From NCBI RefSeq assembly GCF_016774335.1, contig NZ_JAETWA010000006.1, positions 1 to 64,000 on the forward strand: a stretch of 64,000 bases of DNA. The letters run 5' to 3'. Below are positions 5,085 to 64,000 of the stretch, in pieces (position 1 is the first letter of the stretch; every line of letters starts with the position of its first letter). Made by a program: the position numbers and the translations under genes. The notes under the pieces are model-generated. The model was not told the origin of the DNA. It searched no databases and was given only the letters and a program-made list of their open reading frames with translations. The stretch comes from Luteimonas saliphila (GTDB lineage Bacteria; Pseudomonadota; Gammaproteobacteria; Xanthomonadales; Xanthomonadaceae).

Positions 5085-6448
5085 GCCGGAAATACTTCGG
5101 CACCGACGGCATCCGTGGCCGCGTCGGCGAAGGCGCGATCTCGGCCGATTTCGTGCTGCGCCTGGGCAACGCCTACGGCCACGCCCTGCGTGCGGCGGCG
5201 GCGGCCGGGCAGGGTGGGGAGTGGCGCAAGCCGCAGGTGATCATCGGCAAGGACACCCGGATCTCGAACTACATGTTCGAGGCGGCGCTGGAGGCCGGGC
5301 TGGTGGCGGCGGGCGTGGACGTGCAGTTGATGGGGCCGATGCCGACGCCGGCTGTGGCGCATCTCACCCGCTCGATGCGCGCCGACGGCGGCATCGTGAT
5401 TTCCGCCTCGCACAATCCGCACTACGACAACGGCATCAAGTTCTTCTCCGCCGACGGCGAGAAGCTCGACGACGCCACCGAGCTGGCGATCGAAGCGTCG
5501 CTGGAAACGCCGTTCAGCACGGTATCGTCGGAACAGCTGGGCAAGGCGGTGCGCACGCGCGATGCGGTGGGCCGCTACGTCGAGGCCTGCAAGGGATCGG
5601 TCTCCCGCAGTTTCGATCTGGGCGGGATGCGGATCGTGGTCGACTGCGCCAATGGCGCGACCTACCAGATCGGGCCGATGGTGCTGGCCGAGCTCGGCGC
5701 GCAGGTCGAGACGATCGGGGTCTCGCCCAACGGCACCAACATCAACGACGGCGTCGGCTCGATGCACCCGGAAGGCCTGGCGGCGCGCGTGCGCGAGACC
5801 GACGCCGAACTCGGCATCGCCTTCGACGGCGACGGCGACCGCCTGCTGTTCGTCGACAGCGACGGCACCGTGCGCGACGGCGACGACCTGCTGTACGTGC
5901 TCGCGCTGGACTGGCAGGCCAGCGGCCGCCTGCGCGGCCCGGTGGTCGGCACGGTGATGACCAACTACGGCTTCGAGCAGGCGCTGGCGAAGGCCGGGAT
6001 CGGCTTCCTGCGCACAAAGGTCGGCGATCGCTACGTCCACCAGGCGCTGCTCGAGCATGGCGGCATCCTGGGCGGAGAAGCCTCCGGCCACCTGCTGTGC
6101 CTGGACCGCGCCACCACCGGCGACGGCATCATCAGCGCGCTGCAGGTGCTGGAGGTGCTGCGGCGCTGCGGCACCACCCTGCAGCAGGCGCTGGCCGGCG
6201 TGCGCAAGTTGCCGCAGAAGACGGTCAACGTGCGCTACGCCAATGGCGCGAAGCCGGCCGAGGCGGAGGGGGTGAAGGCCGCGCTCGCCGTCGCGCAGGC
6301 GGCGGTGGAAGGGCGGGGGCGCGCCTTCCTGCGCCCGTCGGGCACCGAGCCGGTGGTGCGGGTCACCGTCGAGGCCGACGACGAGGCCCTGGTGCTGTCC
6401 ACGCTCGAGACCCTGGCCGGGGCGGTGCGTGCCGCGGCCGAGCGCTGA
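5081..6448 (+). CDS. glmM: phosphoglucosamine mutase
   Basis: GlmM converts glucosamine 6-phosphate to glucosamine 1-phosphate for UDP-GlcNAc, hence peptidoglycan and lipopolysaccharide. The 455-residue protein has the phosphoserine loop ISASHNP (S110 is the phosphorylated serine), the magnesium loop DGDGDR near residue 247, the sugar-binding GEASGH, and the C-terminal phosphate loop RPSGTEP. Its ATG overlaps the accD stop by four bases, indicating translational coupling of a fatty-acid gene to a peptidoglycan-precursor gene. In enterobacteria glmM instead follows folP. Confidence 0.96.
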
Positions 6449-59627: not shown

Positions 59628-61106
59628 GTGTGGTCATCGGATTCGCGTCGCCTGGCGCTCGCCACGCGCTTGAGCTATTCATCGCTGCCCTCGACCGGCG
59701 ACGATGCCTGCTGGGAAGTCGACATCGCCACGCGTTCGGTCCGTCACTGGTCGGCGCTTTCGGTTGCCGACGCCGAGTACATCGCCGCGCTCGTTGCCGC
59801 GACACCGGCCGCGGACGTGGACGCGGTGGTGAATGGCCGGCAGGCGCTGGCGGATCCGCCCATGGGCATGGGCGGCGGCCAGGTGATGGCGCGCGCCTGG
59901 ATGCTGGCACCCGGCTTGGTGTCCAGTTGGGCCGGCGAGACCCTGAGCCTGGCGCAGGGCTCCGAAGTGCGTGTGCTGAGCGACGCCTGCGCGACGGTCG
60001 CTTCGCCGGTGGCGATGCGCAATGGTGGTCAGTTGATCGTGGTCACGCGCAAGGACGGTCGCTTCGAGGCGATCCGCGTGCACGACGGACAGCATCGAGT
60101 GCATACGCTCGAGATGCCGGCGACGGCCAGCCTGCTGTCCGCGACCGTGGACGGACGCGTGTGGTGTCGGTTGGACGCGAACGATGGCAGTTGGCTCTAC
60201 GTGGCCGGACGCGACGCATCCGACGTGACGTCACCGCTCGTGCTCAACCGGCATCTCGCTGAGATTCGCCGGCCACGTGCACGCGAAGTGGAACGGACCT
60301 CCTCGGACGGCAAGCGCCTGACCGGGGTGCTGATGACGCCTACCAGTACACCCGCGGGAACGCGGTCACCGGTGATCCTCTGGGCCTATCCCAATTCAGT
60401 GCCGCGTCTGGATGGCTGGTTGAGCCGGCTCAACGACGATTCAGCGATCACCTATCCGTTTCAGTATCTGCTGGCGCAGGGTTTCGCCGTGTTCCAGGCG
60501 CCGCTGCCGATGCTGGACCGGCCGGACGCTGCGGAACCGCTGGACTACGTCTCCGGCCTCATCCTGCCTTGGCTGGGCGTGCTGGACCAGCAACCGGAGG
60601 TGCAGGCCGGGCAGTACGGGTTCTGGGGGCATTCCGACGCCGGCTATGTCGCCCTGGCGTTGCTGGCGACGACCGACCGCTTCAAGGCGATCGCCGCGGC
60701 ATCGACCTTTCCCGATCTTGCGGCAACACTGTATTCGGCGCGATTGCCATTCCAGACTTTGGACTGTGCGGCGCACCTGATCCAGACCGACCGCTGGTAT
60801 TACGAGGCTGATACCCAGCGTTACCGCGTGGGCGGAAGCCTGTGGCGCAATACCGAGCGCTTCGTTCGCAACAGCGCGCTCTTTCGCTTGGAGCATGCGA
60901 CCACGCCGACGTTATTGATGGTCGGCGAGTACGATGCCGTGCCGCGGTCGATGGAACAGGTCTACTCCGTCCTGCACGGGAAGGGCGTGCCGGTGGAGCT
61001 GGCCTACTACTGGGGTGAGGGGCACATGATCTCCAGTCCCGAGAACCTCCACGATCTTTGGACCCGCAGCGAGCAGTTCTTCCGGCGCAATCTCTGGCTG
61101 TCTTGA
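59628..61106 (+). pseudogene. S9-family hydrolase, N-terminally truncated
   Basis: 492 residues of a prolyl-oligopeptidase-type protein. The alpha/beta-hydrolase domain (about 230-492) has S336 in GHSDAGY, D436 in GEYDAVP and H466 in GEGHMI as a likely triad. The frame begins with WSSDSRRLAL, which looks like the interior of a beta-propeller blade, and lacks a signal peptide and the earlier blades; family members are usually 650-800 residues. The first codon is GTG, no Shine-Dalgarno, 25 bp after the DJ-1 gene. It may be a 5'-deleted remnant or a short functional form. Hand-counted rows inside it are 58-60 percent GC against 72 percent next door. Lasso-peptide isopeptidases belong to this family. 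Confidence 0.65.
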
Positions 61107-61314
61107 CCCGATGCGGCCGCGTTCGCGTACCACTCGATACACGAGCACTCGAGGGAAGCAGCGACGGGTCCGTGCCCACCCTGACGATCTACCGACTGCG
61201 AGGCGAGATCGAAGGCGCAGAGCCGTGCATTTCATGACATATGTGGCCGCGCGGGTTCAGGTCGGCCACTTGCAGTGCATTAGGCATTAGGGCAAGAAGG
61301 GGCGGGAAGGTCGA
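61107..61314. other. gap before the ECF sigma promoter
   Basis: About 210 bp with lower GC than most of the window. I looked for a small precursor-peptide gene of the lasso type on the plus strand and found none. gcattaggcattagggcaag at 61277-61296 is a short direct repeat. The promoter motif follows at 61315. Confidence 0.4.
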
Positions 61315-61344
61315 GGTACCCACATTTCCCCATTGGACGCTCTT
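61315..61344 (+). promoter_or_regulatory. predicted ECF-sigma promoter 1
   Basis: GGTACCCAC (61315-61323) and GACGCTCTT (61336-61344) are separated by 12 bp. The identical first box and near-identical second box, with identical spacing, precede the STN-receptor gene at 63045. This fits a -35/-10 pair of the FecI-like sigma encoded just downstream, predicting autoregulation. The distance to the sigma start codon is 76 bp. Confidence 0.7.
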
Positions 61345-61420
61345 GTTGATCAGGAGCATCCTTGGGCGTGGCCGGCGCTGGTCGCGGCCAGGGATGACGG
61401 CCATCCACTCATCCATCCGC

Positions 61421-61975
61421 ATGCCCCAGAGCTGGAAACACACGTTCCTGACTACGATGGCCTCCCTGCACGGGCGGCCGCTGCTGCGTTTCTTCGTTTC
61501 CCGGCTGCCCGACGCCGCGGAGGCCCCGGACATGGTGCAGGAGGTCTACCTGCGCCTGTTGCGTCTCAACCGGCCCGATCTGATCCAGTCCCCGGAGGCC
61601 TACCTGTACACCATCGCCGCCAACATCGCGCGGGAGCAGCGACTGAAGCTGGTGACTCGCCCGGCGAATATCGCGCTGGACGACGCCCCGGCCGAGGCAT
61701 TGCCGGCCGATACGGATCCCTTCGCGGCCGCCACGCCGGAAAGCGCCGCCCTGAACGCGGATCGCCTGGAGCGGCTGCAAACCGTGCTGATGCAACTCTC
61801 GCCCAAGGCCCGCGCCTGCTTGGTCTGGCACCGCCGCGACGGCCTCACCTACAAGGAGATCGGCGCGCGGCTGGGCATTTCCACCAACATGGTCAAGAAG
61901 TACCTGTCCCAGGCGATGGCGCATTGCCACCAGCGCCTGGGCGCCGAGCAGGGAGGACCCGAGCGTGTCGCGTGA
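61421..61975 (+). CDS. ECF sigma factor, FecI-like
   Basis: A 184-residue extracytoplasmic-function sigma factor. Region 2 (LLRFFVSRLPDAAEAPDMVQEVYLRLLRL) and region 4 (LSPKARACLVWHRRDGLTYKEIGARLGISTNMVKKYLSQAM) are clear; region 1.1 and 3 are absent as expected. Directly followed by fecR, overlapping by 11 bp. An in-frame ATG at 61394 has cagggatg upstream and would add nine residues; I prefer 61421 from the family N-terminus. It would recognise the bipartite motif found at 61315 and 63045. Confidence 0.9.
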   Translation: MPQSWKHTFLTTMASLHGRPLLRFFVSRLPDAAEAPDMVQEVYLRLLRLNRPDLIQSPEAYLYTIAANIAREQRLKLVTRPANIALDDAPAEALPADTDPFAAATPESAALNADRLERLQTVLMQLSPKARACLVWHRRDGLTYKEIGARLGISTNMVKKYLSQAMAHCHQRLGAEQGGPERVA

Positions 61976-63044
61976 CCCGCACGCCATCGCGCCGCAGATC
62001 AGCCAGGCTGCTGCCGAGTGGTTCATCATCATGCGTGAACCCGTGGTGTCCGAAGCCGACCGGGCCGCGTTCGCCGCCTGGCTGCAGGCTTCGCCCGTGC
62101 ATGTGCGTGCCTACCTCGAAGTGACCCGGCTCTGGGGAGACGCCGCGCAGCTCGATCCGGAACTACCGGTAGCAGAGGATTTTGAACTAGCCGCCGCCAA
62201 CGTGCTGCCGATGCGCGAAGCGGTGCAGCCACGCAAGGATGCCGCAACGGCCAGCCGCGAACCTGCATCCGCGGCGCCCCCGCGAAAGACACGCCGCCGA
62301 CCCTTCGCTGTTGCCGCCTCCATCGCACTCATGGCTGGGTTGGTGGGCGCCGCCATTTGGTGGCAGTTCCATCAGCCGCCGACCTACATCACGGACGTCG
62401 GCGAACAGCGCGTCCTCACCTTGGAGGATGGTTCGATCATCCGGCTGAACTCCCGCTCCGAGGTCAAGGTGCGGATGCTCCCGACGCAGCGCCTGATCGA
62501 ACTGGTCGACGGCCAGGCCCTGTTCGAAGTAGCCAAGGATGCACAGCGCCCGTTCATCGTGCGCAGCGGCAACGTCACCACGCGCGCAGTCGGCACCCAG
62601 TTCGACGTCTACCGCAAGCCGACCGGCACCGTGGTCACGGTGGTGGAAGGGCAGGTGGAAGTGCGCACCGAACCGGCCGTCCGGAAGGCCGATGCCGACA
62701 TCGCAGGATTGGCATTGTCGGTATCCGTCAAGGCGGGCGAACAGGTGATCGTCGGCCGCGCCGGCGCCGTCGAGCAGCACAGGGACGCCAACGTCAACGC
62801 CGCCACCCGCTGGCTGCAGCAGGAACTGGTGTTCGAAGAGCAGCCGCTGAGCGCAGTGGTGGAGGAGTTCAATCGCTACCAGCGCATCCCCATCGTCCTC
62901 CACGATCCCGCGCTGGGCGAACTGCGCGTCAATGCCGTGTTCAACACCACCGGCCCCGAGCCCCTGCTGCGCTTCGTCGGTCGCATGGAGGATGTGCAGG
63001 TGGAACGCACTGCCCGGGAAATCCGAATCACCAGAAAACAATGA
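61965..63044 (+). CDS. fecR: FecR-family transmembrane signal protein
   Basis: FecR-like proteins hold an ECF sigma and pass the signal from an outer-membrane receptor. The 359-residue protein has an N-terminal DUF4880-type cytoplasmic domain (AAAEWFIIMREPVVSEADRAAFAAWLQASP), one membrane segment (about 113-135, VAASIALMAGLVGAAIWWQF), the FecR periplasmic domain (VLTLEDGSIIRLNSRSEVKV, ELVDGQALFEVAKD, RAVGTQFDVY) and a C-terminal STN-interacting part. Start GTG 61965 has gggagga seven bases upstream. Its stop is followed at once by promoter motif 2. Confidence 0.92.
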   Translation: MSRDPHAIAPQISQAAAEWFIIMREPVVSEADRAAFAAWLQASPVHVRAYLEVTRLWGDAAQLDPELPVAEDFELAAANVLPMREAVQPRKDAATASREPASAAPPRKTRRRPFAVAASIALMAGLVGAAIWWQFHQPPTYITDVGEQRVLTLEDGSIIRLNSRSEVKVRMLPTQRLIELVDGQALFEVAKDAQRPFIVRSGNVTTRAVGTQFDVYRKPTGTVVTVVEGQVEVRTEPAVRKADADIAGLALSVSVKAGEQVIVGRAGAVEQHRDANVNAATRWLQQELVFEEQPLSAVVEEFNRYQRIPIVLHDPALGELRVNAVFNTTGPEPLLRFVGRMEDVQVERTAREIRITRKQ

Positions 63045-63074
63045 GGTACCCACTTTTGCCGCGCGAACGCTCTT
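63045..63074 (+). promoter_or_regulatory. predicted ECF-sigma promoter 2
   Basis: GGTACCCAC (63045-63053) and AACGCTCTT (63066-63074), 12 bp apart, begin at the base after the fecR stop codon. Same first box and spacing as promoter 1 and eight of nine matches in the second box. The receptor ATG lies 70 bp downstream. Confidence 0.7.
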
Positions 63075-63143
63075 ACTCCAGGTGACAGATCAATGACACG
63101 CCTCGGGCGCCTGCCTGCGGCATCACTTGGGGAGAAAGGTTTC

Positions 63144-64000
63144 ATGATCAAGCGTTCCTGTCTGTGCGCAGCCCTGCTGCTGGCGTTGGCCGGCACAACG
63201 CCCGTGTTGGCGCAATCCGAAGCCCGGCATGCTGTTGAGCTTCAGGCGCAGGATCTGGGGACGGCGCTCAAGCTGCTGGCGCAGCAGACGAAGCTCCAGA
63301 TCGTGTACTCGGCCGATCTGGTGCAGGGGAAGCGAGCGCCGGCACTCGATGGTTCGCTGACGGCGACAGAAGCCTTGAGCGAGCTACTGAGGGGGACTGG
63401 CCTCAAGTACGAGTTTCTGGATCCGCAGACGGTGACGTTGTCGCCGCTCGGTGCCGCTGCCCAGCGGCTCTCGGGAGGGGCAGGACAAGCAAGCGCCTCG
63501 GGCTCCGCCGGCGACGCAGAGAGAGGCGCTTCCGCCACACCGCCTGCATCAGCCCAACAGGATCAGCTGCAGCCTGCGACAGGAGGAAGAGACCAAGCGC
63601 TGGATCTTGAAAAGGTCGTGGTCACGGGAACGCGTATCCGCGGAGGTGCTACACCATCCCCAGTGATCGCCATCGGTTCGGAGCGGATCCGGGAAGAAGG
63701 CTTCACCGATCTCGGCGAGGTGATTCGCAGCGTGCCACAGAACTCATCGGGCGGTCAGAACCCAGGTGTCCTGATGGGGAACGTGATCGGAGCCGGCGTT
63801 CAGAACCAGAATCTGACCGGAGGATCCGCATTGAACCTGCGAGGCCTCGGCCCGGACGCGTCGCTGACGCTGCTCAACGGGCGCCGCATGGTTTACAGCG
63901 GTTTCGTGCAGGCGATCGATATCAGCGCGATTCCGATCGAGGCGGTGGAGCAGATCGAGATAGTTGCCGATGGTGCTTCCGCCATCTATGGCTCCGATGC
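63144..64000 (+). CDS. TonB-dependent receptor with STN signalling domain (partial)
   Basis: The gene runs off the right edge; 285 codons are visible. Residues 1-23 are a signal peptide (CAALLLALAGTTPVLA-Q). Residues 28-100 form an STN domain (VELQAQDLGTALKLLAQQTK, LDGSLTATEALSELLRGTGL), the part that contacts FecR. A Ser/Ala/Gln-rich linker is followed by the TonB box-like LDLEKVVVTGTRI and the plug domain (ALNLRGLGPDASLTLLNGRRM, VEQIEIVADGASAIYGSD). Start 63144 has ggagaaagg six bases upstream; an in-frame ATG at 63093 would add 17 residues. Substrate unknown; the adjacent S9 hydrolase suggests peptides. Confidence 0.93.
   Translation, partial: MIKRSCLCAALLLALAGTTPVLAQSEARHAVELQAQDLGTALKLLAQQTKLQIVYSADLVQGKRAPALDGSLTATEALSELLRGTGLKYEFLDPQTVTLSPLGAAAQRLSGGAGQASASGSAGDAERGASATPPASAQQDQLQPATGGRDQALDLEKVVVTGTRIRGGATPSPVIAIGSERIREEGFTDLGEVIRSVPQNSSGGQNPGVLMGNVIGAGVQNQNLTGGSALNLRGLGPDASLTLLNGRRMVYSGFVQAIDISAIPIEAVEQIEIVADGASAIYGSD

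Follow-up and report, generated by a model that had tools for sequence, protein, structure and literature searches.

Two near-identical promoter-like sites in the Luteimonas saliphila genome, one ahead of a FecI-like ECF sigma factor gene and its fecR partner and the other ahead of a TonB-dependent receptor gene with a lasso-peptide isopeptidase gene downstream of it, are probably promoters of the adjacent sigma factor. The sigma-fecR unit would then be autoregulated and the receptor-isopeptidase unit activated by the same sigma factor, with a lasso peptide as the most likely ligand. The sites lie in the window, by which we mean the whole stretch of 64,000 nucleotides that was analysed (positions 1-64000 of the 113,329-base contig C4), and belong to K1, one of five tandem fecI-fecR-receptor cassettes (K1-K5) on this contig (Table 1).

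Table 1. Features of cassette K1 and of the five-cassette array on contig C4
Feature	Position	Strand	Remarks
Predicted ECF promoter, sigma-fecR unit	61315..61344	+	GGTACCCAC (putative -35) N12 GACGCTCTT (putative -10)
FecI-like ECF sigma factor gene	61421..61975 (start 61421 or 61397)	+	Sigma70 r2 and r4; sigma70-ECF superfamily 73 bits, cut-off 43
fecR-like anti-sigma gene	61965..63044	+	GTG start; 11 bp overlap with sigma gene; FecR 77 bits, DUF4880 51 bits
Predicted ECF promoter, receptor-isopeptidase unit	63045..63074	+	GGTACCCAC N12 AACGCTCTT; putative function
TonB-dependent receptor gene	63144..64000, on contig to 65834	+	STN (54 bits, cut-off 28), plug, barrel
Lasso-peptide isopeptidase gene	65861-68014 of contig		26 bp past receptor stop; 717 aa; NF033523 617 bits, cut-off 400
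K1	61-68 kb of C4		Cassette with the site pair; isopeptidase over family cut-off
K2	70-76.5 kb of C4		Isopeptidase over family cut-off
K3	76.7-83.3 kb of C4		Isopeptidase over family cut-off
K4 (L008, L051)	C4 83776-90265		Distantly related peptidase in the isopeptidase's place, 124 bits, under cut-off
K5	93.2-99.6 kb of C4		Isopeptidase over family cut-off

Two matching sites around the sigma and fecR genes

The common form of both sites is GGTACCCAC-N12-RACGCTCTT, with 17 of the 18 fixed positions alike and a distance of 17 bp from GGTACC to CGCTCT in each. The first-pass annotation had described two sites of equal spacing that differ at one base over 18 fixed positions, the second starting one base past the fecR stop; the coordinates and the difference were re-found, and the fecR TGA occupies 63042-63044 with the site running from 63045. 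The sigma ATG lies at 61397 or 61421, with the upstream boxes ending 53 or 77 bp before it, and the receptor ATG lies at 63144, which is followed by a signal peptide (70 bp from the boxes), or at 63093 (19 bp).

Likeness alone is weak evidence, because 107 distinct pairs of places within the window (opposite-strand pairs being listed twice) match at 17 or more of the 18 positions in the same 9-12-9 geometry; the significance of the pair comes from its position. In a comparison limited to the upstream stretches of the sigma gene (314 bp) and the receptor gene (99 bp), with spacings of 8-18 allowed, one of 5000 dinucleotide shuffles attained a 17/18 match. A two-box score was also calculated for 62 fecI-fecR cassettes, made up of 35 collinear fecI-fecR-receptor cassettes and 27 of 30 further loci in which a receptor was not required (L194 and L196 gave none), and here the K1 pair scored 36.6 and ranked second. 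Among 1600 cross-cassette pairs, a sample of the possible off-diagonal pairs, three scored above this value, all through one interspersed repeat, and after removal of the six repeat-bearing rows the top of 1300 cross pairs was 31.8. The repeat, which contains GGAGCGGCTTCAGCC, was found in fecI or receptor upstream regions of 6/62 cassettes, including L180, L214, L216 and L223.

The expectation of a matched pair in every cassette was rejected, with a pair at p<0.01 in 6 of the 62 (L184, K1, L173, K5, L177 and L215) and p of 0.01 or more in the other 56. The L215 pair is GC-rich and unconvincing, the L173 site lies 280 bp ahead of the sigma match, and the p value of the K5 pair depends on scoring (0.07 with fixed boxes, <0.01 with the two-box score). 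Since most cassettes are without a matched pair, autoregulation is not the rule in such systems.

Search for further sites and other regulatory elements

The two boxes had been offered in the first-pass annotation as a genome-wide search key for the regulon. In the scan of the genome the many random matches that would discredit such a key did not appear, and besides the two exact sites there was no match at one or two mismatches over the 18 fixed positions. At up to three mismatches 6 places were found (2 exact, 4 at three mismatches; reversed control 9), and with 14 fixed positions and up to two mismatches 24 places were found (2 exact, 22 at two mismatches; control 45). The key works, but the regulon that it returned consists only of the two known sites. 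As the genome holds no further site at up to two mismatches, the regulon is predicted to be private to sigma-fecR and receptor-isopeptidase. No regulon extending past the cassette was found, the extra matches lying at the mismatch limit and being fewer than those of the reversed control. Across 297 genomes of the family, a scan at up to one mismatch returned, besides the two K1 sites, a single isolated site (G201), with 4 places in the control.

A variant pair (GGTAGCCAC / GGTAGCCAT) was present in L184, a cassette from another family of the order, where it precedes a sigma gene whose product is 39% identical to that of K1 and also precedes the STN receptor gene of that cassette. The L184 receptor gene is followed by apparent transporter and PLP-enzyme genes (assigned by eye), with no isopeptidase gene there. 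The motif was absent from the other 60 cassettes when these were scored with a matrix derived from the four known sites, the best score of 7.6 falling below the reversed-sequence maximum of 10.4, and the nearest relatives of the K1 sigma factor (41-50% identical) were without it.

No sigma-70-like promoter was found in 61100-63200 by a scan that covers one promoter type. A convincing Fur box was found neither before the sigma gene (best 11/19, equalled by 153 of 1000 shuffles) nor before the receptor gene (best 8/19, equalled by 975 of 1000 shuffles). A dyad operator was without support, the best self-complementarity being 10 and 12 matching positions, values that have no control for comparison.

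Genes of cassette K1 and the five-cassette array

In the K1 anti-sigma protein FecR and DUF4880 were over their cut-offs and FecR_C, at 20.4 bits, was under its cut-off of 24.4. The K1 isopeptidase aligned with AtxE2 (E 1.2e-42), including the serine (GLSFG) and histidine contexts, whose catalytic role rests on part of PMC9266682 and on general background. An S9 peptidase gene lies directly upstream of the cassette (window 59628-61106) and scored 31 bits with the lasso isopeptidase model (cut-off 400). All five array receptors gave an STN match, that of K5 being under the Pfam cut-off (25.4 against 28.4 bits). The K4 receptor is 50-51% identical to those of K1-K3 despite the distantly related peptidase of its cassette. 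The first-pass annotation had covered neither the isopeptidase gene after the receptor nor the five-cassette tandem, nor the fact that autoregulation is unusual for FecI-type sigma genes.

No lasso B gene (PF13471) was found on contig C4, and the sole Asn-synthase match on this contig (40829-41950) lies about 20 kb upstream; the adjacent B and C genes of an isopeptidase-containing lasso cluster are thus missing at K1. At least two other isopeptidases over the cut-off are encoded in the genome, on contigs C20 and C44, beside lasso B and Asn-synthase (C-like) genes. None of the eight FecR genes of the genome is located on C20 or C44. The C44 receptor is without STN, and the C20 receptor is cut off at the contig end, so that a front end at C20 is possible. 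Ahead of the lasso B and C-like genes of C20 (L141), a 59-aa ORF on the + strand (5688-5867) ends in ...ETKGPLGPQEGTGEGRPVIPGISDE and is, by pattern only, a candidate lasso precursor.

Proposed mechanism and alternatives

We propose that the boxes form a promoter, with GGTACC(CAC) as its -35 and CGCTCTT as its -10 element, that the sigma factor whose gene lies between the two sites would recognise it, and that FecR would hold this sigma factor inactive. Arrival of a ligand at the STN-bearing outer-membrane receptor would be signalled by STN to FecR and release the sigma factor, which could then transcribe its own gene together with fecR in a positive feedback, and also the receptor gene with the isopeptidase gene behind it. 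The ligand would most likely be a lasso peptide, imported by the receptor and linearised by the isopeptidase. A sigma factor reading both sites is the simplest reading given the 17-bp ECF layout and the lack, in the regions scanned, of a sigma-70-like promoter and of a convincing Fur box. The autoregulated ECF promoter pattern that the first-pass annotation had recognised gains support from this spacing and from the placement before the sigma gene and its receptor gene, and it also fits the lack of a sigma-70-like promoter, the variant pair in L184 and the absence of other copies in the genome.

Identical sites ahead of two co-functional units would also be expected for a shared operator, and the boxes could belong to another regulator that co-regulates both units while transcription starts from an unrecognised promoter. 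We regard this as improbable in view of the two-box, 17-bp promoter layout, the lack of a dyad (judged from the uncontrolled self-complementarity values above), the position of the second site directly past the fecR stop, and the lack of a sigma-70-like promoter nearby in the scan of one promoter type. A likeness due to chance, or left as the functionless trace of a small duplication, would agree with the equally good matches elsewhere in the window at the same geometry, but is very hard to reconcile with the rarity of such a match among shuffles of the two upstream stretches and with the lower scores of all the repeat-free cross-cassette pairs sampled.

A possibly exchangeable front end

The front end of these cassettes looks like an exchangeable sensory cartridge with its own promoters. 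Between K1 and K2-K4, identity is 27-30% for sigma, 31-32% for FecR and 28-36% for STN, whereas the plugs are 79-86% and the barrels 49-59% identical; the isopeptidases of K1-K3 are 57-60% identical. K5 is more distant from K1 (plug 42%, barrel 30%), and the STN-less C44 receptor is as close to K1 as those of K2-K4 are (plug 80%, barrel 54%). GC3 within K1 is 0.89 in the sigma gene, 0.81 in fecR, 0.61 in the receptor gene and 0.64 in the isopeptidase gene, and inside the receptor gene it is 0.77 for STN, 0.58 for the linker, 0.72 for the plug and 0.56 for the barrel; this drop is in line with a join, yet marks no single point. In the searched genomes nothing close to the K1 front end was found, the best sigma match being 50% identical, and all plasmid relatives of its sigma factor were below 60% identity. 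Its movement is therefore argued from other cassettes.

Similar front ends were found on dissimilar receptors, as in K4 and L145 (10471), which share 79% identity in sigma and 73% in STN but 51% in the barrel, and in L143 and L174 (sigma 85%, STN 56%, plug 37%). Similar receptors were conversely found with different front ends, L145 (10471) and L143 being 31% identical in sigma and 29% in STN but 92% in the plug and 79% in the barrel. L154, with STN and fecIR, and L142, the C44 receptor with neither, form a natural with/without pair of the front end (plug 95%, barrel 92%). In AU tests on groups that were named after the trees had been seen, the receptor data rejected three of four front-end-sharing groups, namely K4+L145 (p 4e-4), L143+L156+L174 (9e-7) and K2+L160+L177 (0.04), and did not reject L154+L053 (p 0.13), while the sigma data rejected L145+L143 (2e-12) and K1+K2. 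On receptors, K1 and K2 were grouped in a 53-row tree (SH-aLRT 97) and unresolved in a 19-row tree.

Across 13 lasso-type cassettes, sigma identity tracked that of FecR (3/2000 permutations as high) and STN (40/2000), but not that of the plug (591/2000) or barrel (1244/2000). Against a clean cut, STN identity tracked plug identity (5/2000); plug identity tracked barrel identity weakly (223/2000). Because fecR and the STN region flank the predicted receptor promoter, sigma factor and promoter would stay matched if the block moved. Receptor upstream regions of front-end-sharing pairs scored above all 163 other pairs in 6/8 cases, although L177/K2 aligns at the start codon and not at the promoter, and sigma upstream regions did so against all others in 4/8; some of this likeness would be expected from common descent alone.

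We tentatively suggest, as one possibility, that a self-wired block (promoter-sigma-anti-sigma-promoter-STN) moves whole and joins one family of isopeptidase-associated lasso receptors near the STN-plug linker, giving each a private switch. The tandem array, in which no lasso B gene was found, might thereby enable the cell to recognise, take up and open multiple lasso peptides, among them those made by neighbours. Alternatively, no exchange may have occurred, and the sigma, FecR and STN parts of tandem cassettes may have changed rapidly in concert, driven by selection against cross-talk, with the plug and barrel remaining constrained. This would equally yield low identities in the front end beside well conserved plugs, and it draws support from the tracking of STN with plug identity and from the fact that L154+L053 was not rejected as a receptor clade. 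We nevertheless judge it rather unlikely, since similar front ends sit on dissimilar receptors (K4/L145; L143/L174), similar receptors carry a different front end or none (L145/L143; L154/C44), and the receptor and sigma data reject most of the groupings named above.

Isopeptidase loci in other genomes

An isopeptidase over the cut-off was found in at least 25 of 120 genomes, the source genome included; the family search scored part of the candidates in each genome, and the counts are lower bounds. Stretches around most of these places were taken and annotated with small models built from proteins of the source genome. They gave 45 rows, in which one L143 row repeats the L144 gene and L175 stands for two pieces of one gene; L054 and matches that did not exceed 200 bits are not among them. 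Ten rows had fecI/R together with an STN receptor but no B/C genes, 24 had B/C genes alone and 7 had B/C genes with STN; two rows had fecI/R and B/C without STN, one had all three and one had none. L173, counted among the seven rows with B/C and STN, belongs to the L177 fecIR and hence has all three.

Ten of the 14 sigma-linked rows were without a biosynthesis gene in stretches that extend only about 4.4 kb beyond the isopeptidase start, which suggests that sigma-linked systems take up and sense lasso peptides made elsewhere. Isopeptidases are described in part of PMC9266682 as restricted to the lasso peptide of the cluster that encodes them, a specificity that would fit one switch per peptide. 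STN domains were also seen in isopeptidase-linked receptors for which no fecI/fecR was found upstream (L146, L159, L164, L167, L168 and L171; the L167 contig has only about 5 kb of upstream sequence), and these may be orphan STN domains or may depend on a sigma factor acting from elsewhere.

Relation to known systems and significance

K1 shares with FecIR-FecA signalling (E. coli fec, Serratia has) an ECF sigma factor with regions 2 and 4, FecR and an STN-bearing TonB receptor, in the same order. E. coli fecIR and Serratia hasI are described in part of PMC9249621 as Fur-controlled and without autoregulation; in contrast, the K1 sigma gene has the predicted promoter of the receptor gene and no convincing Fur box. 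K1 thus appears to work like a Fec system yet to depart from the prototype wiring of a Fur-controlled, non-autoregulated sigma gene. With positively autoregulated ECF operons it shares one predicted promoter motif before the sigma operon and the target operon. Part of PMC8103513 lists FecI-like ECFs among the exceptions to positive autoregulation, and for VreI of P. aeruginosa self-induction is called unusual in part of PMC2729926.

Lasso isopeptidases accompanied by a TonB receptor and a sigma/anti-sigma pair are described in part of PMC9266682, and K1 has all of these in common with the isopeptidase-containing clusters of astexin (AtxE2), sphingopyxin and rubrinodin. Unlike in those clusters, its contig is without a lasso B gene, and the B and C-like genes of the genome are on C20 and C44, where there is no FecR gene. 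A literature search, with most subscription journals outside its range, found no prior description of an orphan sigma-isopeptidase array, of a promoter motif in a cassette of this type or of front-end exchange among lasso receptors.

Methods that predict the target promoters of ECF sigma factors rely on autoregulated cases (stated in part of PMC8103513), and K1 supplies a FecI-type sigma factor together with its likely promoter. Natural joins between an STN front end and a receptor also point to places at which receptors of this kind may be separated and reconnected. In part of PMC9266682 the role of isopeptidase-linked lasso peptides is described as enigmatic, and the predicted private, self-amplifying switch of K1 would provide a direct assay for which lasso peptide activates its promoter.
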